NCBI GenBank assembly: GCA_945897475.1
Contig: CAMDFL010000026.1
Span: 1 to 36,790 of the forward strand
Direction of reading: 5' to 3'
DNA length: 36,790 nucleotides
Source of the DNA: Bordetella parapertussis
GTDB taxonomy: Bacteria; Pseudomonadota; Gammaproteobacteria; Burkholderiales; SG8-39
A model generated the notes under the pieces. That model saw nothing but the letters and a program-made list of their open reading frames with translations, made no database searches and was not told the DNA's origin. This document shows positions 13,444-36,289 of this stretch, one piece after another; position 1 is the stretch's first letter, and every line of letters starts with the position of its first letter. A program made the translations under genes and the position numbers.

Positions 13444-13581
13444 GGGTTGCGGTGTCTTTCATTCCGTTGATCAGGCGAGGCGATTCAATAACGCTTCTCC
13501 GGCGTTCAGCATCATAGGGCACGGTGTCTTTCATACATTGGATCAGGCGAGGCGATTCAATAGCGCTTCTCCCGCGTTCAG
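13438..13581. repeat. 72-bp tandem duplication spanning the dehydrogenase stop and the hflX start
   Basis: Copy 1 is 13438-13509 and copy 2 is 13510-13581, about 85% alike. Copy 2 holds the last twelve codons and stop of the dehydrogenase gene. Copy 1, on the minus strand, repeats those codons as LNAGEALLNRLA plus TGA, with only third-position or synonymous changes, and then runs into the hflX start codons. Most of the 99-base gap between the genes is therefore a copied gene end. Confidence 0.9.
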
Positions 13582-14442
13582 GCGGCGCACATTTTCCAGC
13601 GCCGCGGCGATGCTTCGCTCCAAGGTCTCCCCGGTCAGCCAGGCTATGTGCGGCGCACATACCACGTTTGGAAGGAGCAGCAAGGGATGATTGGCGGCCA
13701 GTGGTTCACACGAAAAAACATCCAGTCCCGCCGCCGCAATATGTCCGCTTGCTAGCGCTTCAATAAGCGCCCTGTCATCAATCAACCCGCCACGCGCGGT
13801 ATTCACCAGTATCGACCCAGGCTTCATTCTCATCGGATCGAGAAAATTCGCGGTTGCTGGCGTGAGCGGCAAGTGCAGCGATACGATCTGCGAGCGAGCG
13901 ATTAAATCGTCAAAGGATACATTTTTGGCGGAGCGCGACCAGTAGAGCACCTTCGCGCCCATGGCATCGAGTACGCCGTGCAAAATTTTTGGCACGGTGC
14001 CGTAGCCGATCAATCCGACGGTGCGGCCACAGATCTCGCCCAGTTGGTCCTGCATTCGCAAGGCCTCATACCAGCCATCGCTTCTCACCAGGGAATCCAG
14101 CACTGGAAGTCGTCGCAGGCAGGCGAGCATCAGCAACAGTGTCATTTCAGCCACCGCGCGGCTATTGCTTCCTGGCAGATTGCACACCGCGATATCACGC
14201 CGTTTTGCCGCTTCCATATCGATGGTGTTCACGCCAACGCCAATTTTCTGGATCAGTCGCAACCTGGGTGCTCGCGCGATGACCTCCGCGGTCACTGGCT
14301 TCAACACATGCCAGAGGACTTCCATTCCGGGGGCTAGGGCGTCGAACGCCTCCGGGTCGTTTTCCGGGCAAAGCGTCACACCTTGTTCGCGGACTCGATT
14401 GGCAAGGGATTCGGTCCCATCAAAATGAAAAACGATGCTCAT
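13543..14442 (-). CDS. D-2-hydroxyacid dehydrogenase (NAD-binding)
   Basis: This 299-residue cytosolic oxidoreductase of the D-isomer 2-hydroxyacid dehydrogenase family interconverts a 2-oxo acid and a 2-hydroxy acid. The nucleotide site is VGLIGYGTVPKIL; the third glycine of GxGxxG is replaced by Pro, as in some family members. The catalytic trio is present as Arg in NTARGGLID, Glu in DVFSCEP and His in CAPHIAW. The ATG at 14442 overlaps the enolase-like stop in an ATGA, so the two are translationally coupled. The partner genes (kinase, enolase-like) suggest a substrate related to glycerate, hydroxypyruvate or another small hydroxy acid, but this is inference. The 3' end is duplicated downstream. 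Confidence 0.9.
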   Translation of the reverse strand: MSIVFHFDGTESLANRVREQGVTLCPENDPEAFDALAPGMEVLWHVLKPVTAEVIARAPRLRLIQKIGVGVNTIDMEAAKRRDIAVCNLPGSNSRAVAEMTLLLMLACLRRLPVLDSLVRSDGWYEALRMQDQLGEICGRTVGLIGYGTVPKILHGVLDAMGAKVLYWSRSAKNVSFDDLIARSQIVSLHLPLTPATANFLDPMRMKPGSILVNTARGGLIDDRALIEALASGHIAAAGLDVFSCEPLAANHPLLLLPNVVCAPHIAWLTGETLERSIAAALENVRRLNAGEALLNRLA

Positions 14443-15698
14443 TGTGGAAACAATTTTCTCGCTGGATAGGGCATCGCCTTGGCCCCCAGGAACTCCTCTA
14501 TACGAATCGCTTCATTCCACTTGGCCATTCGCTCGGAGCGCGAAAAACTGCCGACCTTCAACTGCTGCACTCCCCAACCGATGGCGAGGTGAACAATGGA
14601 TACGTCTTCGGTTTCCCCTGAGCGGGCCGAGACAATGCCGCGATAGCCGCCTTCGCGTGCCGCGTCCCAGCAGGCAAGGGTCTCGGTAAGAGTGCCGACT
14701 TGATTGGGCTTGAGCAGTACCGTGTTGCAGATTTTCTTCGCCACAGCATCCTTGACGCGTGAGGCCTGCGTGCAGAAGAAATCGTCGCCTACAATTTGTA
14801 TGCGCGCGCCTGCTGCGCGGGTAAAGGCCTCCATGGCGGCGGCATCGTTCTCGGCGAACGGGTCTTCGATCGACACGATGGGGTAGCGCTCAACCCAGCG
14901 CAGCAACATGGCTTGCATCTGTTCTGCGGTGAGGAACCGATTTTCCAATGCCAGGTGATAACGCCCACCTTGATAGAGCTGCGTTGCCGCGATATCCAGG
15001 GCGATGCCCACATCGGTGCCGGGCGTGTAGCCCGCATCGGTAATCGCTGCGACCAGTTCAAGCAATGCTTCTTCGTTTGACTTGAAGGCGGGCCAATAAC
15101 CGCCTTCGTCGGCTACACCATGGCGCATGCCGCGCTTGGCCAGACGCGCCCCGGCCGCGGCGTAGATGTCTGCGGTCCATTGCATGGCCTCATCGAAGCT
15201 TCCGGCTCCGCTGCAGATAATCATGTAGTCCTGAATATCGACGCTGCCTTTAGCATGTGCCCCCCCGCCGAAGATCTGCACCTGTGGAACGGGCAGGGCA
15301 ACGTGGCGCTCGCCCGCCAGATACTTCCATAAGCTCAGGTTCGCGGCGGCTGCGGCGGCTTGCGCGCAGGCAATGGACACCGCGACTATGGCATTGCCGC
15401 CCAAACGACCTCGATCTGGCGTGCCATCGAGTTCGATCATGCATCGATCAATCTGCTCCTGATCCGATGAGTCCATGCCTCTCAACGCCGCGCAAATTTC
15501 GGTGTTGACATTTTTCACCGCGAGTTTTGTATCTATGCACCTGGCTTCTCCAGCCCCGGTCGATGCGCCTGCGGGTGCGATGGCGCGACCGGTTGCGCGC
15601 GTGGCGCCAGCGTCTACCACCGTGACCTCGGCTTCAACGGTTGCCCGACCGCGTGAGTCCCAGACCCGGCGCGCTATTACATTAAGGATTTCTGCCAT
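14439..15698 (-). CDS. enolase-family protein with altered active site
   Basis: The 419-residue protein covers the whole enolase fold. It has the GASTG loop (44-48), His148 in GGAHA, Glu198 in ADEGG, metal ligands Asp235, Glu278 (IEDP) and Asp305 (VGDD), and the lysines Lys330 (LLKPNQ) and Lys381 (QLKVGS). Two positions differ from yeast and E. coli enolases: the Glu of IQEFM (yeast Glu168) is Asp157, and the SHRSGETED block reads SARSGETED, so yeast His373 is Ala358. The metal site and base lysine are kept, so it should be an active alpha-proton-abstracting enzyme, perhaps on a different phosphorylated acid. It is probably not the housekeeping enolase, which usually sits beside pyrG in these bacteria. 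It overlaps the kinase gene by 22 bases and the dehydrogenase by four. Confidence 0.85.
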   Translation of the reverse strand: MAEILNVIARRVWDSRGRATVEAEVTVVDAGATRATGRAIAPAGASTGAGEARCIDTKLAVKNVNTEICAALRGMDSSDQEQIDRCMIELDGTPDRGRLGGNAIVAVSIACAQAAAAAANLSLWKYLAGERHVALPVPQVQIFGGGAHAKGSVDIQDYMIICSGAGSFDEAMQWTADIYAAAGARLAKRGMRHGVADEGGYWPAFKSNEEALLELVAAITDAGYTPGTDVGIALDIAATQLYQGGRYHLALENRFLTAEQMQAMLLRWVERYPIVSIEDPFAENDAAAMEAFTRAAGARIQIVGDDFFCTQASRVKDAVAKKICNTVLLKPNQVGTLTETLACWDAAREGGYRGIVSARSGETEDVSIVHLAIGWGVQQLKVGSFSRSERMAKWNEAIRIEEFLGAKAMPYPARKLFPQ

Positions 15699-16651
15699 GT
15701 CTTTCGAATTTCTATTAGTGATGTTGGTGGATGGACGATAAGCGGTTTGGCGGTGCGCCTGACATGTTCCTGGCCCGAGGCATCCAGATATTCGACCGGT
15801 GATTTCCCATCAACTCGCGCAAGCAGCAACGCGGGCAACAAGGAGGCTGTTCGGCGCTCGACATCCTCGGCCGGATCATATCCCTGCACCATCGCATCAA
15901 AACATTGCAGGAACGAAGCCCTCGCCATTGGCGCCCACAAGCATTTCAGCAACAAATGATTGAGGCAGAAAGCCAGATCGAAGGCGGGATCGCCGTACCA
16001 CGCACACTCCGCGTCGAGAAACACCGGGCCGTCTGGGCTAATCAGGATGTTCTTTGGGCTGACATCGCCATGCACAAGGCAGACTTTGGTGACGGCAGTA
16101 CGCTCGGCCAGTGCCCGCAAAATGCTCGCGAGCTCCGGATGCCGAATGGCCGTCGCAAGCAAATAGGGCTCAATGCGAATGGCATGAAAAATCGCGTCGG
16201 TGGGAAATTGATCAGCGATCTCCTGGCGACCGGCGGTGGCATCGTGAATCGCTCGAAGCGAGCGCCCCACCTCAATGGCGAAGCAGGGGTCGGCGACCCC
16301 TTCGCGCAGCACCGCCTTCCACACAGGGTGGCGCAGAAACGCCATCGCGAACCATCCCTCGCCCAAGGCCAGCAGGCGCGGCACACGCGCCGGGTTCACC
16401 TTTGCTGCGATGCGCAGCCACTCATACTCGTAGCGGTTGCGCAGGATGGGTGCTTCCCAGACGGCGCTCACCTTCAAGCGCGGCAATGCCCGCTTCACGC
16501 ATATCGGCCCGGCTGCCAGGTCGACGCGCCAGATGTCGGAGGACACGCCTCCCGGCAATGGCGCCATGCTGATGTTTTCGTCTGCGCGAGCCAGACCGAG
16601 GCCAATCAGTGCATCAATAATCAGTGCATCACCGATTTGCGTTTTCGACAT
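15677..16651 (-). CDS. APH-type phosphotransferase (small-molecule kinase)
   Basis: The 324-residue kinase is of the aminoglycoside/choline/homoserine kinase-like fold. Brenner's motif is HGDVSPKN (194-201), with catalytic Asp196 and metal-binding Asn201. The second metal Asp is Asp213 in FLDAECAWYGDPAFDLAF. The N-lobe ATP lysine is probably Lys53 in ICVKRAL. Such enzymes phosphorylate hydroxyl groups of small molecules; resistance to aminoglycosides is not implied. Position directly upstream of, and overlapping, an enolase-like gene suggests that its product is the enolase-like enzyme's substrate (inference). AAGG lies eight bases before the ATG. Confidence 0.85.
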   Translation of the reverse strand: MSKTQIGDALIIDALIGLGLARADENISMAPLPGGVSSDIWRVDLAAGPICVKRALPRLKVSAVWEAPILRNRYEYEWLRIAAKVNPARVPRLLALGEGWFAMAFLRHPVWKAVLREGVADPCFAIEVGRSLRAIHDATAGRQEIADQFPTDAIFHAIRIEPYLLATAIRHPELASILRALAERTAVTKVCLVHGDVSPKNILISPDGPVFLDAECAWYGDPAFDLAFCLNHLLLKCLWAPMARASFLQCFDAMVQGYDPAEDVERRTASLLPALLLARVDGKSPVEYLDASGQEHVRRTAKPLIVHPPTSLIEIRKTWQKSLM

Positions 16652-29120: not shown

Positions 29121-29246
29121 GGCCTCTTTGCCAAGTCGGCGATGCCCAAATCGGCGATACTAAAGCCTTCGGACACCTGTCAGTGTTTTGGCCCCAGGCC
29201 ACACGCCGCGCGGGTCAGAGCGACATTATTAACCAAGGAGTACGTC

Positions 29247-29993
29247 ATGGGTCAGTTGGAAGGAAAAGTTGCGATCATCACAGGATCGAACACCGGTATC
29301 GGCAAAGGCATCGCCGAGGTATTCGCCAAGGAAGGCGCCACGGTCGTGATCAATGGCCGCCGCAAGGAGATGATCGATGCGGTGGTAGAGTCGATCAAGG
29401 CCGACGGCGGCAAGGCGATCGCGGTGCAGGCCGATGTCACGAAGGAGCCTGAGGTGATCGCGCTGTTCGAAAAAACCATATCCAGCTTGGGCAAGGTGGA
29501 TATTCTGGTCAACAACGCCGGCGTGGCGACCAATACACCGACTTATAAAATGTCCTTGGCGCAATGGCAGTCGGTGGTGGATGTCAACCTTACCGCCGCC
29601 TTTCTATGCAGTCGCGAGGCCTTTAAGTTCATGATGGATCATGGTGGCGGACGCATCATCAACATCGGCAGTATCTCCGCGCAAACGCCTCGCACCAACT
29701 CCGCGCCCTACGCTGCGACCAAGATGGCCATTGAAGGCCTGACGCGTTCCTTGACTCTGGATGGACGGCCTTTCAACATTGTTTCATCCATCATTCATAC
29801 TGGCCCGACGGCTTCCAACTTCAACGCGGCGCGTGGCGGCCCCGGCCCTGGCAAGACGCCGGCAGACTTCATCATGTACCCGCACGATCTGGGGCGTCTC
29901 GCGACCTTGATGTGCAGCCTGCCCCCGGAGGTGAACCTGTTCTCTTCCATCATCCTGCCCAATCACATGCCCTCCTTCATAGGGCGTGGATAA
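29247..29993 (+). CDS. short-chain dehydrogenase/reductase (SDR)
   Basis: The 248-residue NAD(P)-dependent oxidoreductase has the cofactor motif TGSNTGIGKG (about 14-23), NNAG (strand 4) and the catalytic Ser in NIGSISAQ with Tyr-x3-Lys in YAATK. It is a classical SDR of the FabG-like type. The Arg in VINGRRKEM after strand 2 favours NADP. A tail of PNHMPSFIGRG replaces the usual DGG end. ATG at 29247 has AAGGAG seven bases upstream. It follows the urease operon after a repeat-filled gap, in the same direction as the cupin gene 260 bases later. The substrate is unknown. Confidence 0.9.
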   Translation: MGQLEGKVAIITGSNTGIGKGIAEVFAKEGATVVINGRRKEMIDAVVESIKADGGKAIAVQADVTKEPEVIALFEKTISSLGKVDILVNNAGVATNTPTYKMSLAQWQSVVDVNLTAAFLCSREAFKFMMDHGGGRIINIGSISAQTPRTNSAPYAATKMAIEGLTRSLTLDGRPFNIVSSIIHTGPTASNFNAARGGPGPGKTPADFIMYPHDLGRLATLMCSLPPEVNLFSSIILPNHMPSFIGRG

Positions 29994-30166
29994 AGCGTAA
30001 ATCCGACGACGATCGCGCGCCCTGTCGCCGTATTTGCCGTGTTCTTCAAGGGCGACTGCGGGGCGACCACGAATCGCTCGCGCGCTTCGATAAAAGCCGT
30101 CGGCATTGAACCGGAGTAGCGTCTATCATCGCGTCTGCGCGGGGGATTTGCTGACCAGGTGCGAGA

Positions 30167-30190
30167 AAATTCACGAGGAAATTCACGTAA
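30167..30190. repeat. 12-bp duplication AAATTCACG in the SDR-cupin gap
   Basis: AAATTCACGAGG (30167-30178) and AAATTCACGTAA (30179-30190) are adjacent. An inverted near-copy (AAATTCGTGAG) lies at about 30205-30215. The 260-base gap 29994-30253 holds no gene. The direct and inverted copies could serve as regulator half-sites for the cupin-dehydrogenase pair, but this is speculative. A clear AAAGGAGG precedes the cupin ATG. Confidence 0.45.
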
Positions 30191-30253
30191 ATATTGGCGA
30201 AAAAATTCGTGAGAAAACGCACAAACAATTTTGACCGCTAAAAGGAGGAATTC

Positions 30254-30745
30254 ATGTCCGCTCAATTGAAACCAGAAAGCCCCGCCATAGGAACCGTGAA
30301 GCCGCAGCTATTCAGCTTGAAAACGCCTATGGTGTCCTCGGGAATGATCGATAATTTCGTCTCTGTAACCGATCTCATGAAGGTCTCGATCAAGATTTAT
30401 GCCGAGGGTGGCGAGAATTTTCTGCACACGCATATGACCGAGGATCATTTCTTTGTCATCATCGAGGGCGAGGCGACCTTTCGCGATCCGGAGGATCATG
30501 CCGTTACCTTGACCAAGCAACAAGGCATCATGCTGCCGCGAGGCTGCTACTACATGTTCACCAATACCGGGTCGATACCGCTGGTGATGTTGCGTTGCGC
30601 TGCGACCGCGGTGCAGCCCTGGGTCAAGGACAGCCGCGAATGGTGGCAGGGCGTGAAGGATACGCGCGTACCTAGTCGGGATGGATCTAACATCATCCCC
30701 GGAAAATTCTTTGCCGAGGGCAGCGATTTGCCCGCCACCAAGTAA
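30254..30745 (+). CDS. cupin-domain protein
   Basis: The 163-residue single-cupin protein has GGENFLHTHMTEDHFFVIIEG (about 52-72), giving metal-binding His58 and His60 with Glu63 near. The second cupin motif reads PRGCYYMFTNTG and lacks its usual His. It may be a small dioxygenase, isomerase or binding protein. AAAGGAGG precedes the ATG. The dehydrogenase gene follows 18 bases later, so the two are probably co-transcribed and act on related compounds (inference). Confidence 0.82.
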   Translation: MSAQLKPESPAIGTVKPQLFSLKTPMVSSGMIDNFVSVTDLMKVSIKIYAEGGENFLHTHMTEDHFFVIIEGEATFRDPEDHAVTLTKQQGIMLPRGCYYMFTNTGSIPLVMLRCAATAVQPWVKDSREWWQGVKDTRVPSRDGSNIIPGKFFAEGSDLPATK

Positions 30746-30763
30746 GCCAAGAGGAGCTAAGCC

Positions 30764-31843
30764 ATGTCAGGACCCAAGGTCGATGTCGCCGCGCCGGTGG
30801 ATGAGTCGGGCGCCAGCTACGAGCGCATGAAGCGCGCGGGTATCAATATGAAAATACCCCCTCAGGCGTGGATGGATATGGCCAATATCCGGCGGCGCTA
30901 CGACGTCGTGTTCGATGCCGATAGCGATGCCGCGGCGTGCGCCGCCAACAAATCCATGACGGTGACGCGCAAATCCCTGGCAGACGCGCCGAATCTGCGC
31001 CTGGTGGCGTTTTATACCGTGGGCTACGACAACATCGATCTGGATGCCGCGACCGAGCAAGGCGTGCTGGTGGTACACAGTCCCACCGAATCCAATTGGG
31101 GGGGCGTTGCCGAGGGCACCGTGGCCAATATCCTGACTGTGTTGAAAAAGGCGCGTGAGAAGGATAGCTTCATCAAGGCGGGTGGTTGGCGTGATCGTTC
31201 GCTGCAGGGGCAGTATGTCGGCCCACGTCAGATCGACAATTACCCCGGCCTGACCTTTGGCATTATCGGCCTGGGCCGCATTGGCGGAAGGGTGGCGGAT
31301 CTGCTCGCGCCCTGGCGGATGCGCCTGATCGGCTACGATCCCTACGCGGATGACTCGCTGTTTGTTCATCACAACGTGCATCGCGTTGATCTGGATACGC
31401 TGTTAAAACAGTCGGACGTGGTGACCATCCACTGTAATCTCACCAAAGAAACGCATAAGCTGATTGGTGCCAGCCAGCTTGCCTTGATGAAGAAAACCGC
31501 CTTGCTCGCGAACCACGCGCGCGGCAACATCGTCGACATCGACGCGTTGGCAGACGCACTGGACGCGGATCGCATCGCCGCTGCCATACTCGACGTGCTA
31601 CCCGAGGAGCCGCCCCCTGCGGATCTGCGTTTCCTGAAAATGGGCGACAAGGTGCTGCTCTCGCCGCACATGGTTTCCAACAACGTGGGGAGCGGCCTCG
31701 CCATCGCCGCGCCGTGGGTGGAACAGGCGATCTACGACGCGCTCTCAGGGAAAATCCCCAAACACGTGGTCAACCCGGAGATCATTCCCCGCTGGCTCGA
31801 GCGCTTTGGCGGGAAGGATCTGCTGACGGCGGCCGCGGCGTAG
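30764..31843 (+). CDS. D-2-hydroxyacid dehydrogenase
   Basis: The 359-residue member of the D-isomer family has cofactor motif IIGLGRIGGRVADLL, catalytic Arg in NHARGNIVD, Glu in DVLPEEPP and His in LSPHMVSNN. The first ~45 residues lack a standard strand and are longer than usual. A VTRKSLADAPNLRLVAFYTVGYDNIDL block forms the substrate domain. GAGGAG precedes the ATG. It is only distantly like the other dehydrogenase in this window (13543-14442), so they probably serve different substrates. An antitoxin relic begins immediately after its stop. Confidence 0.9.
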   Translation: MSGPKVDVAAPVDESGASYERMKRAGINMKIPPQAWMDMANIRRRYDVVFDADSDAAACAANKSMTVTRKSLADAPNLRLVAFYTVGYDNIDLDAATEQGVLVVHSPTESNWGGVAEGTVANILTVLKKAREKDSFIKAGGWRDRSLQGQYVGPRQIDNYPGLTFGIIGLGRIGGRVADLLAPWRMRLIGYDPYADDSLFVHHNVHRVDLDTLLKQSDVVTIHCNLTKETHKLIGASQLALMKKTALLANHARGNIVDIDALADALDADRIAAAILDVLPEEPPPADLRFLKMGDKVLLSPHMVSNNVGSGLAIAAPWVEQAIYDALSGKIPKHVVNPEIIPRWLERFGGKDLLTAAAA

Positions 31844-31846
31844 TTC

Positions 31847-32038
31847 CGGCGAATCTCTGGCGTTGCGGTAGGACATAGCCAGACCGTCACTGCGGACACC
31901 GCAGCTCGACTGGCAAAGTACGTTGGGGGCAACGCTGCATCGTGGTTTGTGCTGCAAGCGAACTACGACTTGAAGACGCTGCCCGCTCTACAGAGCATCG
32001 AGCGCGTGGTGCCGGTACGTGAGCTCAGTGAAGCCTAA
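31847..32038 (+). pseudogene. higA: 3' fragment of a HigA-type antitoxin gene
   Basis: In the frame ending at TAA 32036-32038 the sequence reads RRISGVAVGH, then TVTADTAARLAKYVGG, NAASWFVLQANYDL and KTLPALQSIERVVPV. This matches the helix-turn-helix end and C-terminal helices of HigA (VapI/addiction-module antidote) proteins, whose consensus is TADTALRLARYFG...WLNLQ..YDL. The upstream frame is closed by the dehydrogenase stop only four bases before, so the first ~40 residues are lost. No HigB toxin is nearby. It looks like the scar of a lost toxin-antitoxin module joined to the dehydrogenase gene end. Confidence 0.75.
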
Positions 32039-32182
32039 AAGTCAGCGATGATTGCGCCCAATTTTCCAGCTTGATCTTCGAAATTTGCTCAAATTCCCTG
32101 AGTACTACGCCCACGTCCAGGCCGGACTCTTACTGGGGCGGCGACACAAAGGGATGCTGCAAGGCGTGCAAGCATCACGCCG

Positions 32183-32204
32183 ATTTGAGTTTGAAACTTC
32201 AAAT
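32183..32204 (-). terminator. AT-rich hairpin after the MDR gene (weak)
   Basis: Read on the minus strand, ATTTGA-A-GTTT pairs with AAAC-TCAAAT just beyond the MDR stop at 32221. The stem has one bulge and a tight loop, so it could end or pause the transcript only weakly. The rest of 32039-32220 shows no gene I can support. Confidence 0.25.
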
Positions 32205-32220
32205 TGAACCTTGCATCTTT

Positions 32221-33198
32221 TTAACTGACTTTGATCACAATTTTGCCGACCTGTGAATTCGATTCCATGAATTCGCGTGCGCGCGGCAGTTCATCCAATG
32301 AAAACACTTTGTCGACCAGAGGTTTGATTCGGCCATCGGCCAGGAAGGGCAGCATTTCGCGTCGATAAGTCGGCAGCATCGCCGCGCGCTCGTGTATCGG
32401 GCGATGTTTCGCTGAGACGCCAAATAGGTGTAATCGTTTCGAATGCAGGCTCCCCAAGTCAATTTCCGCGCTAAAGGTCTTGTCGAGATAACCGACCGTG
32501 GCAAGGCGACCCTGAAAGGCCATGCATTTGATGCACTCGGCGAATACCGAACCGCCGACATTGTTGACCACCAGATCCGCGCCTTTGCCGCCGGTGGCGT
32601 CGAGGACGGCCGCAGCGAAATCGGGATTGCGCGTCTCGATGCCGATATCCAAGCCTAAGGCTTTCAAGCGATCAAGTTTTGCGCGCGAGCCGGAGGTGCC
32701 GATCACCTTCGCGCCCAAGGCTTTGGCGGTTTGCAGGCAGGCCACGCCAACACCTGCCGAGACGCCTGTAACCAGCAGCCATTCGCCTGCCTTGAGGTGG
32801 CCTTGCGCCATCAGCATGTCGTGTGTGGTCATGAAGGCGATGGGGGCGGCGGCGGCTTCCTCCCAGCTGAGCCGATCGGGGGCCTGATTGGCCAGACGCG
32901 CGTCGAATACTGCGTATTCGGAGTAGGCGCCGCGCGCTGTACCCATGACGCGATCGCCGATTTTCCATCCGCTGACATCCGCGCCTATTGCGTCTACTTC
33001 GCCGGCGCAGTCCGAACCCGCCGGCGCGGCGACAGGTCCGCCGTGCGCCAGCGATGGCGAACTCAAAAACTCTCCACGATTCAGCGACGCTGCCCGTACC
33101 TTGATGCGAATTTCACCGGCTTTGGGTTCGGGAATGGGAATTTCGTGCAGCTGGAGGGTGCTGGGCTGGGTATCGGTTTTCAGAAACCATGACTTCAA
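32221..33198 (-). CDS. zinc-free MDR oxidoreductase, quinone-oxidoreductase-like
   Basis: The 325-residue medium-chain dehydrogenase/reductase has a GroES-like N-terminal domain (VRAASLNRGEFLSS, AGSDCAGEVDAIG, GDRVMGTARGAYSEYAVFDA) and the cofactor loop VTGVSAGVGVACLQTAKALGAKVIGTSGS of NADPH quinone oxidoreductases. The zinc ligands of alcohol dehydrogenases are absent. It ends LPRAREFMESNSQVGKIVIKVS. The start is TTG at 33198, because AGGAG lies seven bases before it and no in-frame ATG is near. It is divergent from the FAH gene across a 389-base repeat-rich gap. Confidence 0.9.
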   Translation of the reverse strand: MKSWFLKTDTQPSTLQLHEIPIPEPKAGEIRIKVRAASLNRGEFLSSPSLAHGGPVAAPAGSDCAGEVDAIGADVSGWKIGDRVMGTARGAYSEYAVFDARLANQAPDRLSWEEAAAAPIAFMTTHDMLMAQGHLKAGEWLLVTGVSAGVGVACLQTAKALGAKVIGTSGSRAKLDRLKALGLDIGIETRNPDFAAAVLDATGGKGADLVVNNVGGSVFAECIKCMAFQGRLATVGYLDKTFSAEIDLGSLHSKRLHLFGVSAKHRPIHERAAMLPTYRREMLPFLADGRIKPLVDKVFSLDELPRAREFMESNSQVGKIVIKVS

Positions 33199-33328
33199 TT
33201 TAATTCTCCTGTTTCAAGATGTGAATCAAGCGGCGTGTATTCTAGTCACTAACGAGGTAAGTGTTGACAGTTCTGGCATAGAACTGTCTGGCATAGAACC
33301 AGGGTTCGGATACGGCCGGCTAAATTGT

Positions 33329-33350
33329 AGGTTTGCGCTTTTGCAAACCT
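33329..33350. promoter_or_regulatory. 8-bp hairpin in the MDR/FAH divergent gap
   Basis: AGGTTTGC and GCAAACCT flank a six-base loop. It lies about 130 bases from the MDR start and 240 from the FAH start. A small direct repeat (CTGGCATAGAAC) is nearby at about 33275-33300. It could be an operator or a remnant element. No transposon gene is present. Confidence 0.4.
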
Positions 33351-33420
33351 GCAGTTTGGCGGGAAAGGTGGCCTCAGTGACAGCCTGTTTGGTTCCGGTT
33401 CTGCCGGCTTAGGGTTAGGA

Positions 33421-33511
33421 CAATCGCGGGCAAGCGAAGACATGCGCGAACAAGCGCGAAGACAAGCGCGAACAAGCGCGAACAAGCGAGAACAATCGCG
33501 AACAATCGTTG
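33421..33511. repeat. about nine imperfect 10-bp units, CAAGCGCGAA type
   Basis: The 91 bases consist of CAATCGCGGG, CAAGCGAAGA, CATGCGCGAA, a 12-base unit, CAAGCGCGAA twice, CAAGCGAGAA, CAATCGCGAA and CAATCGTTGA. The period equals about one DNA turn, so all units face the same side of the helix. It ends about 75 bases before the FAH start in the divergent gap 33199-33587, which holds no gene. Confidence 0.8.
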
Positions 33512-33587
33512 ATTCGCTTGCGGGGAAAGCGCCGCGCGGCTACATTGTCGCCTCTTTGACGGAATTCCATTTAAGTAGGAGAGCAAA

Positions 33588-34535
33588 GTGAAATTGGTGT
33601 TGTTCCAAAACGACGGCAAGGGCGAGATAAATCCAGGCATCCTTACAGATAGAGGCGTGGTCAGTATCGCAAGCGCGGTAAAGCGCGACTACACTCCTCA
33701 ATTGACCATGCAGGGAATCATCGACGATTTTGACAAGCTGCGTCCCAGTTTGGAGAAGTTGGCTAAAGATTCAGCCGCGATACCTCTGGATAAGGTACGT
33801 CTGCGTGCGCCGCTGCCGCGCCCGGGGAAATTTCTTTGCTGCATCGGCAATTACTGGGAACACGCGCAGCGCGAGACCAAGGGTTTGTCGATGTTCCTGA
33901 AAAATCCGGATGCGGTGGTCGGACCTGGCGATACCATTGAATTGCCTGAATTTACCGAGCCATGGGCCTTCATGCATGAGGCGGAGCTGGCCATCGTGAT
34001 CAAGGGTCCGGTCAAGCGTGTCAAGCGCGAGAACTGGCGCGATGCGGTGTTCGGCTATACCGCGATGATCGATGTCACCGCGCGCGGCGAAGGCCGGCGT
34101 ACCTGGCCGGCGATGACTCCGGCGAGCTGGATGGGAAAGTCCTTTGATACCTTCGGGCCGGTTGGCCCTTGCATTACGACTGCCGATGAAATTCCAGAGC
34201 CCAACGATGTCATCGTGCGATTCTGGAACGATGGTCAGTTGCGCCATAATTACAACACCGACGACATGGAGCACCGTGTGCCCGAAATCATTGAGTGGGC
34301 GAGCACCATCATGACGCTCAACTCGGGCGACCTGATTGCTTGCGGCACCAATCACGAAGGCCTGGGCATGGTGCAGGATGGCGAAACCGTTGAAATCGAG
34401 ATTCAGGGAATCGGCAAGATGGCGCTGAAAGTGAACGATCCGCTCAAGCGCAAGTGGGATCGTGGCGTCTACATGGGCGTGGATTCCACCAACCCGGAAG
34501 CGGTCAAACGCCATCGGCCGAAAACAGCGGCTTGA
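33588..34535 (+). CDS. fumarylacetoacetate hydrolase (FAH) family protein
   Basis: The 315-residue enzyme has an N-terminal strand region (MKLVLFQNDGKGEINPGIL) and a FAH C-terminal domain. Metal ligands come from FMHEAELAIVIKG (Glu) and MIDVTARGEGR (Asp), and CIGNYWEHAQRE and GKSFDTFGPVGPCITTAD surround the site. FAH enzymes cleave C-C bonds, decarboxylate or isomerise 2-oxo or 1,3-diketo acids. GTG at 33588 has AGGAG upstream. The ThDP enzyme follows 107 bases later in the same direction, so the two may act in one catabolic path (inference). Confidence 0.9.
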   Translation: MKLVLFQNDGKGEINPGILTDRGVVSIASAVKRDYTPQLTMQGIIDDFDKLRPSLEKLAKDSAAIPLDKVRLRAPLPRPGKFLCCIGNYWEHAQRETKGLSMFLKNPDAVVGPGDTIELPEFTEPWAFMHEAELAIVIKGPVKRVKRENWRDAVFGYTAMIDVTARGEGRRTWPAMTPASWMGKSFDTFGPVGPCITTADEIPEPNDVIVRFWNDGQLRHNYNTDDMEHRVPEIIEWASTIMTLNSGDLIACGTNHEGLGMVQDGETVEIEIQGIGKMALKVNDPLKRKWDRGVYMGVDSTNPEAVKRHRPKTAA

Positions 34536-34642
34536 ATTTATCGCGTAATCCATTCCAATTTGAGTATTAAAATTGAGCAATTTGGCATGTCAGTAATTGG
34601 CATTGACCAATTAAAGTTTGACTTATATATAAAGGATTTGTT

Positions 34643-36289
34643 ATGAAAGGTGCCGCAGTTGTCGCGGAAATTCTCAAGCGCGAGGGGGTCACGGACCTGC
34701 CTTGCTATCCCCGAAATGCAATTATCGAACCCGCAGCCGAACTGGGTATCAGGCCTTACATCGTGCGCCAGGAGCGCACCGGAATGCACATGGCCGATGC
34801 CATCAGCCGCGTCACCAGTCGGCAGAAAATCGGCGTGTTTGCCATGCAGCAGGGCCCGGGGACTGAGAATGCCTATGGCGCCGTCGCCCAGGCCTATGCG
34901 GAGTCGGTTCCCTTGCTGGTTCTGCCGATGGGCCACGCGCGCCGCGCCGCGCAGATCGCGCCCAATTTCAGCGCCATGCTGCAAATGCGCGGAATATCCA
35001 AGACGGTTGAGCAGGTGACTTTTGCGGATGACATTCCTAACGCCATGCGGCGCGCTTTCACGCAACTCCGCAATGGCCGGCCGCGTCCTTGCATCGTGGA
35101 GTTGCCGATGGATGTATTGGCTGAGGAATTCACCGGCAACATAGACTATCAACCGGTGCTGACCTCGCGTAGCGCGCCCGACCCCGCAGTGGTGCCCAAG
35201 GCTGCTGCCGCCATGATCGATGCCAAGCGCCTGGTGATCTACGCAGGCCAGGGCATTCACTATGGAAGAGCCTGGAAGCAACTGAAGGAACTGGCCGAGT
35301 TGCTGGCCGCGCCGGTGGTCACAACCTATGCGGGTAAGAGCAGCTTCCCCGAGAATCATCCTCTGTCATTGGGTTCGGGCGGCGCTTCATTCTCCAAGCA
35401 AGCCTATGATTTCGTCGAGAACGCCGATTTGATCTTTGGCGCCGGCTGCTCGTTTACGCAAACACCGTTTGCAATCAACATGCCACGCGGCAAGCGCTAC
35501 ATCCACGCCACCTGGGATATGGCCGAGGTCAACAAAAACCTGCCCACGGAAATGGCCCTGGTTGGTGATCTGGATTTGACGCTCGATGCCTTGGTGGCCG
35601 AAGTCAAAGACCGTCTGAAAGGCAAGGCGCGCGATGCCGGGCCTGTCGCAAAAGAAATCAAAACTATCCGCGATGCTTGGCTCGCCGAGTGGATGCCCGA
35701 ACTCACTTCGAACGATGTGCCGATTTCACCCTACCGCGTGATTTGGGATCTGCTGCATACCTTGGATGTACCCAACACCATCGTCACCCACGACTCGGGC
35801 TCGCCACGCAACCAGATCGTGCCGTTCTGGCAGTCGACCGAGCCGATGAGCTACATCGGCTGGGGCAAGTCCACGCAACTCGGGTATGGCCTTGGCCTCG
35901 CCATGGGCGCCAAAATCGCGAAGCCTGAGAAAACCTGCGTGAACTTCTGGGGCGATGCGGCATTTGGCCACACCGGCATGGATTTCGAGACCTGCGTTCG
36001 CGACAACATTCCGATTCTGTCTATCTTGGTCAACAACAATTGCATGGCGGCGGAACTGAACGTCATGACGAGTTCGACCGAGAAATACCGCTCGACCGAT
36101 ATCTCTGGCAACTACTCGGACCTGGCAAAGGCCTTAGGCGGCTACAGCGAGCGAATCACCAACCCGGCCGAAATCGTCGCGGCGATCAAGCGCGGCGTGG
36201 CGAAAACCAAGGAAGGCAAGGCGGTGCTGCTGGAATTCATGACCAAGAAGGAGACGCGCTCGAGTATCTATGGACGCAGTGGCGGCTAG
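34643..36289 (+). CDS. thiamine-diphosphate enzyme, acetolactate-synthase-like
   Basis: The 548-residue protein has the three ThDP domains. The N-terminal Pyr domain carries the cofactor-activating Glu44 in VRQERTGMHMADA. The central domain includes RLVIYAGQGIHYGRAWKQL. The C-terminal PP domain has the metal motif GDAAFGHTGMDFETCVRDNIPILSILVNNN (GDA at about 437-439, third-position Ala instead of Gly). Such enzymes decarboxylate or ligate 2-oxo acids (acetolactate synthase, benzoylformate decarboxylase, sulfopyruvate or oxalyl-CoA types). AAAGGA precedes the ATG. No regulatory small subunit follows, which argues against biosynthetic acetolactate synthase. The substrate is open. Confidence 0.88.
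   Translation: MKGAAVVAEILKREGVTDLPCYPRNAIIEPAAELGIRPYIVRQERTGMHMADAISRVTSRQKIGVFAMQQGPGTENAYGAVAQAYAESVPLLVLPMGHARRAAQIAPNFSAMLQMRGISKTVEQVTFADDIPNAMRRAFTQLRNGRPRPCIVELPMDVLAEEFTGNIDYQPVLTSRSAPDPAVVPKAAAAMIDAKRLVIYAGQGIHYGRAWKQLKELAELLAAPVVTTYAGKSSFPENHPLSLGSGGASFSKQAYDFVENADLIFGAGCSFTQTPFAINMPRGKRYIHATWDMAEVNKNLPTEMALVGDLDLTLDALVAEVKDRLKGKARDAGPVAKEIKTIRDAWLAEWMPELTSNDVPISPYRVIWDLLHTLDVPNTIVTHDSGSPRNQIVPFWQSTEPMSYIGWGKSTQLGYGLGLAMGAKIAKPEKTCVNFWGDAAFGHTGMDFETCVRDNIPILSILVNNNCMAAELNVMTSSTEKYRSTDISGNYSDLAKALGGYSERITNPAEIVAAIKRGVAKTKEGKAVLLEFMTKKETRSSIYGRSGG

Follow-up and report, generated by a model that had tools for sequence, protein, structure and literature searches.

Introduction

Enolase (phosphopyruvate hydratase; TIGR01060, PF00113 and PF03952) acts through a lysine that abstracts the alpha-proton and a glutamate that removes the C3 hydroxyl, and in the Mycobacterium tuberculosis enzyme E163 and E204 are active-site residues (PMC10619443). 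In the serine-cycle/glycerate segment, enolase operates together with hydroxypyruvate reductase, a glycerate 2-kinase of the DUF4147/MOFRL type and phosphoenolpyruvate (PEP) carboxylase. Kinases of the APH family are described for methylthioribose, thiamine, homoserine and antibiotics. In this work, we analysed a stretch of 36,790 nucleotides from Bordetella parapertussis (assembly GCA_945897475.1, contig CAMDFL010000026.1), referred to below as the window, where members of these families are encoded by three overlapping genes lying head to tail. The initial annotation had suspected here an undescribed hydroxy-acid pathway formed by a kinase, an enolase-like protein and a dehydrogenase, and all the features on which it relied were found in place:

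16651-15677, - strand: KIN, APH-type kinase, 324 aa (Pfam APH, 4.7e-17)
15698-14439, - strand: ENO', enolase-like protein, 419 aa (Pfam Enolase_C, 1.7e-86; Enolase_N, 3.8e-35)
14442-13543, - strand: DH, D-2-hydroxyacid dehydrogenase, 299 aa (Pfam 2-Hacid_dh_C, 7.2e-45; 2-Hacid_dh, 2.4e-26)
15677..15698, - strand: overlap of KIN and ENO', 22 bases
14439..14442, - strand: overlap of ENO' and DH, 4 bases

The data presented below show that KIN and ENO' are the constant pair of a set conserved in both bacteria and archaea, and that ENO', labelled "enolase" in databases, probably handles an acid other than 2-phosphoglycerate (2-PG). We lean towards the view that the pair carries out an elimination in two steps, at the expense of ATP, on a glycerate analogue that differs at C3, and that a keto-acid reductase commonly feeds the pair. 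A parallel by description is carboxyphosphonoenolpyruvate synthase of phosphinothricin biosynthesis, an enolase homologue recruited to another reaction at PEP C3; unlike the set studied here, it is biosynthetic.

Results

The active site of ENO' is altered throughout the subfamily

By annotation rules ENO' passes as a glycolytic enolase, scoring 436 bits against TIGR01060 at a curated cutoff of 300. Its structure model, built with sequence rows from the window and from the genome loci, has a pLDDT of 87.7. The likeness to enolase comprises the fold (TM ~0.9; 0.92-0.94 to most of the top solved enolases), the metal ligands, the phosphate-binding residues, both catalytic lysines and E211; in yeast numbering, D246/E295/D320 as metal ligands, S39, K345, K396, H159, E211, R374 and S375 are all kept. 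The altered active site reported in the initial annotation is nonetheless real and invariant. All 99 of the 99 ENO' proteins, across phyla and domains, carry both E168D and H373A (yeast numbering), and a further comparison adds ENO' loci with the same Asp and Ala, partly from genomes already counted. Canonical enolases have Glu168 and His373 in all 38 proteins compared (9/9 and a further 29/29). ENO' also differs from them by Ala in place of Gly two residues ahead of E211 and, mostly, by Trp at position 215. The codons concerned are as follows:

15228..15230, - strand: codon of D157, at the place of yeast E168; Asp for Glu throughout the subfamily
14625..14627, - strand: codon of A358, at the place of yeast H373; Ala for His throughout the subfamily
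15093..15095, - strand: codon of W202, at the place of yeast A215; most members have Trp, the others Ser, Ala or Gly

In the phylogenetic tree, which includes no canonical archaeal chromosomal enolase and has a very divergent Enterobacter protein on a long branch, the canonical enolases form one strongly supported clade with all ENO' proteins opposite; the haloarchaeal ENO' proteins group with those of actinobacteria.

M. tuberculosis E163 and E204 would correspond, by our own equation, to yeast E168 and E211. Since the glutamate acts on the C3 hydroxyl, this equation places E168D on the C3 side. For H373 we assume, from the yeast structures, a location in the C3-side region as well. The changes in ENO' thus appear to sit around the C3 leaving group, and the C1-C2 side looks untouched. 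We therefore predict that ENO' is a 2-phospho-2-hydroxyacid lyase, although annotation rules name it phosphopyruvate hydratase. With such a protein annotated as the glycolytic enzyme, a probable second function lies hidden within a very well-known enzyme family, and metabolic models should not count the genes of this set as glycolytic.

In genome G310, from the window's own genus, where KIN was not found, the relative of ENO' (L175, 7978-9303) is without E211, K396 and H159; it may be decayed or repurposed, as if its activity were unneeded once KIN is missing.

KIN and ENO' form a conserved pair

To scan GTDB genomes we used ENO', which gave 80 loci with 54-72% identity. In 59 of them KIN lies on the same strand no more than 100 bp upstream of ENO', and in 12 more it is found in the same cluster, 0.9-6.7 kb away. 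The remaining nine are truncated by the end of the contig or locus: five stop less than 250 bases upstream of ENO', and the other four, all from Streptomyces, have some 7 kb of flank; in other Streptomyces loci KIN is about 6 kb from ENO'. The two genes are therefore linked in 71 out of the 71 loci where the fetched stretch holds both. As the loci were found independently, 59 close neighbours and 12 members of the same cluster indicate that the adjacency is not due to chance. The 22-base overlap is identical in the relative L003 and similar in other close relatives.

Whether the set would be conserved beyond close relatives had been put forward as a check, and the pair proved to span phyla and to reach the archaea: we found it in Alpha-, Beta- and Gammaproteobacteria, Actinomycetota, Acidobacteriota, Planctomycetota, Bacteroidota and haloarchaea. 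It is present in plasmid records of Rhizobium, Cupriavidus, Rhodococcus, Sphingobium, Paracoccus, Roseibium, Azospirillum, Methylobacterium, Persicobacter (Bacteroidota) and Embleya, and among archaea in those of Haladaptatus and Halomarina. KIN is scarce overall (7/299 genomes of Pseudomonadota, 3/185 in the window's class) and is present in 38 of the 61 genomes from the window's own family, where 30 of 41 KIN hits have an enolase-family hit within 700 bp on the same contig. Kinases resembling KIN with a lower score and no adjoining ENO' were also seen (G317, G301:C18, G338:C13, G327, G339 and G318:C165), possibly a sister subfamily.

The third gene is less constant. A D-2-hydroxyacid dehydrogenase, from one of several subfamilies, is near ENO' in only 41 of the 80 loci, so that of the proposed three-gene set the pair stands and the dehydrogenase is one option among reductases; in other loci an ApbA/PanE or IlvC-like keto-acid reductase adjoins KIN-ENO'. 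That the keto-acid reductases adjoining the pair come from three unrelated families supports the idea that a 2-keto acid is reduced just before KIN acts.

No description of the set, or of its combination of families, was found in the open-access literature searched, with subscription journals and preprints mostly uncovered. This supports the suspicion of an undescribed pathway and makes the novelty provisional; KIN-ENO' is apparently an undescribed conserved enzyme set.

KIN and DH have intact catalytic residues

The kinase residues of KIN are all intact (K53, H194-G195-D196, N201 and D213) and invariant in 18 proteins from bacteria and archaea. Just as other APH-family kinases, KIN has the HGDxxxxN catalytic loop and the metal-binding Asp; it differs from them in its own C-terminal signature, LAR(V/I)DGKSPVEY, and in scoring far below the cutoffs of the curated NCBIfam models (the top one, MTRK, gives 40 bits at a cutoff of 275). 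By these sequence features it is a distinct APH subfamily outside the characterised ones, and we predict it to be an (R)-2-hydroxyacid 2-kinase.

In DH the catalytic R217/E246/H265 are intact and invariant in 10 relatives. The NAD-binding GxGxxG region reads GYGTVP in the window and near relatives, with the first two Gly kept and Pro at the third position. DH is a predicted NAD-dependent D-2-hydroxyacid dehydrogenase, a keto-acid reductase that would feed KIN.

Discussion

A possible reaction scheme

The order proposed in the initial annotation, from keto acid to 2-hydroxyacid to 2-phospho-acid and then elimination, is in our opinion still the best reading, and a hydroxy-acid pathway is plausible. 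The scheme builds on the observed gene set, its conservation, its residues and its context, from which we infer the individual reactions, their stereochemistry and the class of substrate. A 2-keto acid supplied by FAA hydrolases or aldolases would be reduced to an (R)-2-hydroxy acid by DH, or elsewhere by the ApbA/PanE or IlvC-like enzyme, and KIN would then phosphorylate the 2-hydroxyl at the expense of ATP. The resulting 2-phospho-acid would be held in ENO' by the unchanged enolase metal and phosphate sites, K330 (yeast K345) would abstract the C2 proton, and the expulsion of the C3 group would leave PEP, or a PEP substituted at C3. Rather than 2-PG, the substrate is probably a glycerate analogue that bears an additional substituent at C3 or has a different neutral leaving group there. 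Since two acidic groups, D157 and E198, remain near C3, the leaving group should be neutral or cationic, and sulfonate or phosphate is disfavoured. Because ENO' comes with its own kinase, a direct test is possible: the product of KIN should be the substrate of ENO'. If true, the scheme widens the enolase repertoire by a new elimination and brings in a pathway recurring in aromatic, sugar-acid and one-carbon gene clusters.

A bolder and distinctly doubtful extension is that ENO' is a new lyase, yielding PEP through a leaving group other than water (e.g., methanol from 3-O-methyl-2-phosphoglycerate, or ammonia) or else C3-substituted PEPs, and thereby providing an energy-conserving entry into central metabolism common to bacteria and archaea. 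Some copies have methyl-transfer and formaldehyde-handling genes close by, which is compatible with such a lyase but does not prove it.

Two other substrates were tried and rejected. A sulfolactate route with elimination of sulfite was dropped as a lead, as the two acidic C3-side residues would repel a sulfonate and no recurring sulfite-handling genes were seen, the only exception being TauE-like genes at a few Ramlibacter loci. L-2-phosphoglycerate was discarded since ENO' retains K345, K396 and E211 and shows no new base among the compared positions.

Weighing the alternatives

The main rival is a plain route to PEP, where hydroxypyruvate is reduced to D-glycerate, KIN serves as an alternative glycerate 2-kinase, and ENO' is a dedicated 2-PG isozyme, an arrangement like that of the lower serine cycle. 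The reaction types follow the same order there, beginning with a D-2-hydroxyacid dehydrogenase, the family to which hydroxypyruvate reductase belongs. On Rhizobium plasmids a PEP carboxylase with intact motifs adjoins DH and KIN, and it is linked in two further genomes; beside the set in the window none was seen. KIN-ENO' lies by formate-tetrahydrofolate (THF) ligase in four genomes of the window's family; in some of these there are also corrinoid methyl-transfer genes, and one has formate dehydrogenase as well as a succinate/malate-type CoA ligase. These contexts fit a serine-cycle-like flow to PEP and are the reason why this route is kept as the main rival; the Halorubrum set with a kinase of the DUF4147 glycerate-kinase family points the same way. 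The invariant E168D/H373A is hard to square with 2-PG as the substrate, and the kinase of the set is of the APH type, not DUF4147, with an enolase altered on its C3 side. Moreover, a separate canonical enolase is present in the window's genome (its absence, together with normal 2-PG activity of ENO', had been named as a ground for refuting the proposal), as is a MOFRL glycerate 2-kinase-type gene elsewhere in it, so the ordinary glycerate route appears to exist beside the set; the MOFRL type occurs in 54 of 61 genomes of the family. The plain route is thus rather unlikely in our estimate. Should KIN phosphorylate another group (the 3-hydroxyl, a carboxylate or an amine), the chemistry of ENO' would differ from that of enolase. 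APH kinases as a class take many substrates, and the closest solved chains by sequence are weak matches; the retention of the phosphate-binding Arg and Ser, H159 and both lysines argues for a 2-phospho-acid, and in Halorubrum a DUF4147 gene fills the place of the kinase, which leaves this possibility improbable. Most improbable of all is a catalytically dead or moonlighting ENO' with KIN working alone: in its favour, ENO' is altered at two active-site positions, KIN relatives without an adjoining ENO' exist in the window's family, and the G310 relative has lost catalytic residues, but the subfamily otherwise retains its catalytic and metal residues and the linkage to KIN is nearly complete where testable.

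Several points weigh against a two-step elimination from a C3-differing glycerate analogue. About half of the loci have no DH in the immediate neighbourhood, and the neighbouring pathways vary widely (aromatic-type dioxygenase, sugar-acid, one-carbon), with no single substrate evident. PEP carboxylase, the corrinoid/THF one-carbon genes with formate-THF ligase, and the DUF4147 variant equally fit the conversion of hydroxypyruvate via 2-PG to PEP. The reactions of KIN and ENO' are predictions, and the effect of E168D/H373A on 2-PG activity follows from general knowledge of enolase mutants.

Neighbouring genes and variant clusters

FAA hydrolases recur near ENO' in several lineages. A homoprotocatechuate-dioxygenase-like VOC enzyme, a Zn-alcohol dehydrogenase, a CMD protein, a cupin and LacI form another recurring group, found in Streptomyces, in Burkholderia and relatives, in Rhizobium and partly in Sphingobium. 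The neighbours in Paracoccus and Roseibium are tripartite-tricarboxylate, TRAP or sugar ABC transporters, SDRs and LacI, and in haloarchaea mandelate-racemase-type dehydratases, aldolases and an IlvC-like reductase. At L159, L162, L163 and L170, KIN-ENO' stands beside formate-THF ligase and TctCBA; some of these loci also carry a UroD-type methyltransferase, a corrinoid protein, a methyl-THF methyltransferase, an activase, DUF1638 and a PhyH-like oxygenase, a possible demethylation island.

The Halorubrum plasmid locus (L114, 149-9643) encodes an altered enolase (Leu at position 159 and Glu at position 373) adjoining the DUF4147 glycerate-kinase-family gene, along with two D-2-hydroxyacid dehydrogenases and sugar-acid dehydratases; it is apparently a convergent version that follows the same logic with partly non-homologous parts. 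On Enterobacter chuandaensis plasmid pE20191216 (L085, 7193-14872), a KIN relative adjoins an unannotated enolase-like protein with D168, Lys in place of E211 and Gly in place of H373. Further genes there encode a D-2-hydroxyacid dehydrogenase, an aminotransferase, a haem-oxygenase-like enzyme, an M14 peptidase and an MFS protein, so the locus looks like a biosynthetic cluster employing the same trio. A conjugative plasmid of Burkholderia cenocepacia (L113, 5983-10374) bears two enolase genes with canonical E168/H373 close to a pyrophosphatase gene. Streptomyces coelicolor, too, has a second enolase gene, SCO7638.

Upstream of KIN in the window lies a gene that the initial annotation had counted as a possible source of the starting acid:

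17617-16778, - strand: alpha/beta hydrolase (Pfam Hydrolase_4, 3.6e-08), outside the conserved unit

We ruled it out as a member of the set, since it is not conserved: across the 80 loci the sole match beside ENO' is one 23-bit hit. An Rfam scan of 10-20 kb gave no match. Beyond the urea/urease genes, the window contains a second group of the same partner families at 29142-36289, possibly linked functionally: an SDR, a cupin, a D-2-hydroxyacid dehydrogenase (30764-31843), a Zn-alcohol dehydrogenase, an FAA hydrolase (33588-34535) and a TPP enzyme (34643-36289).

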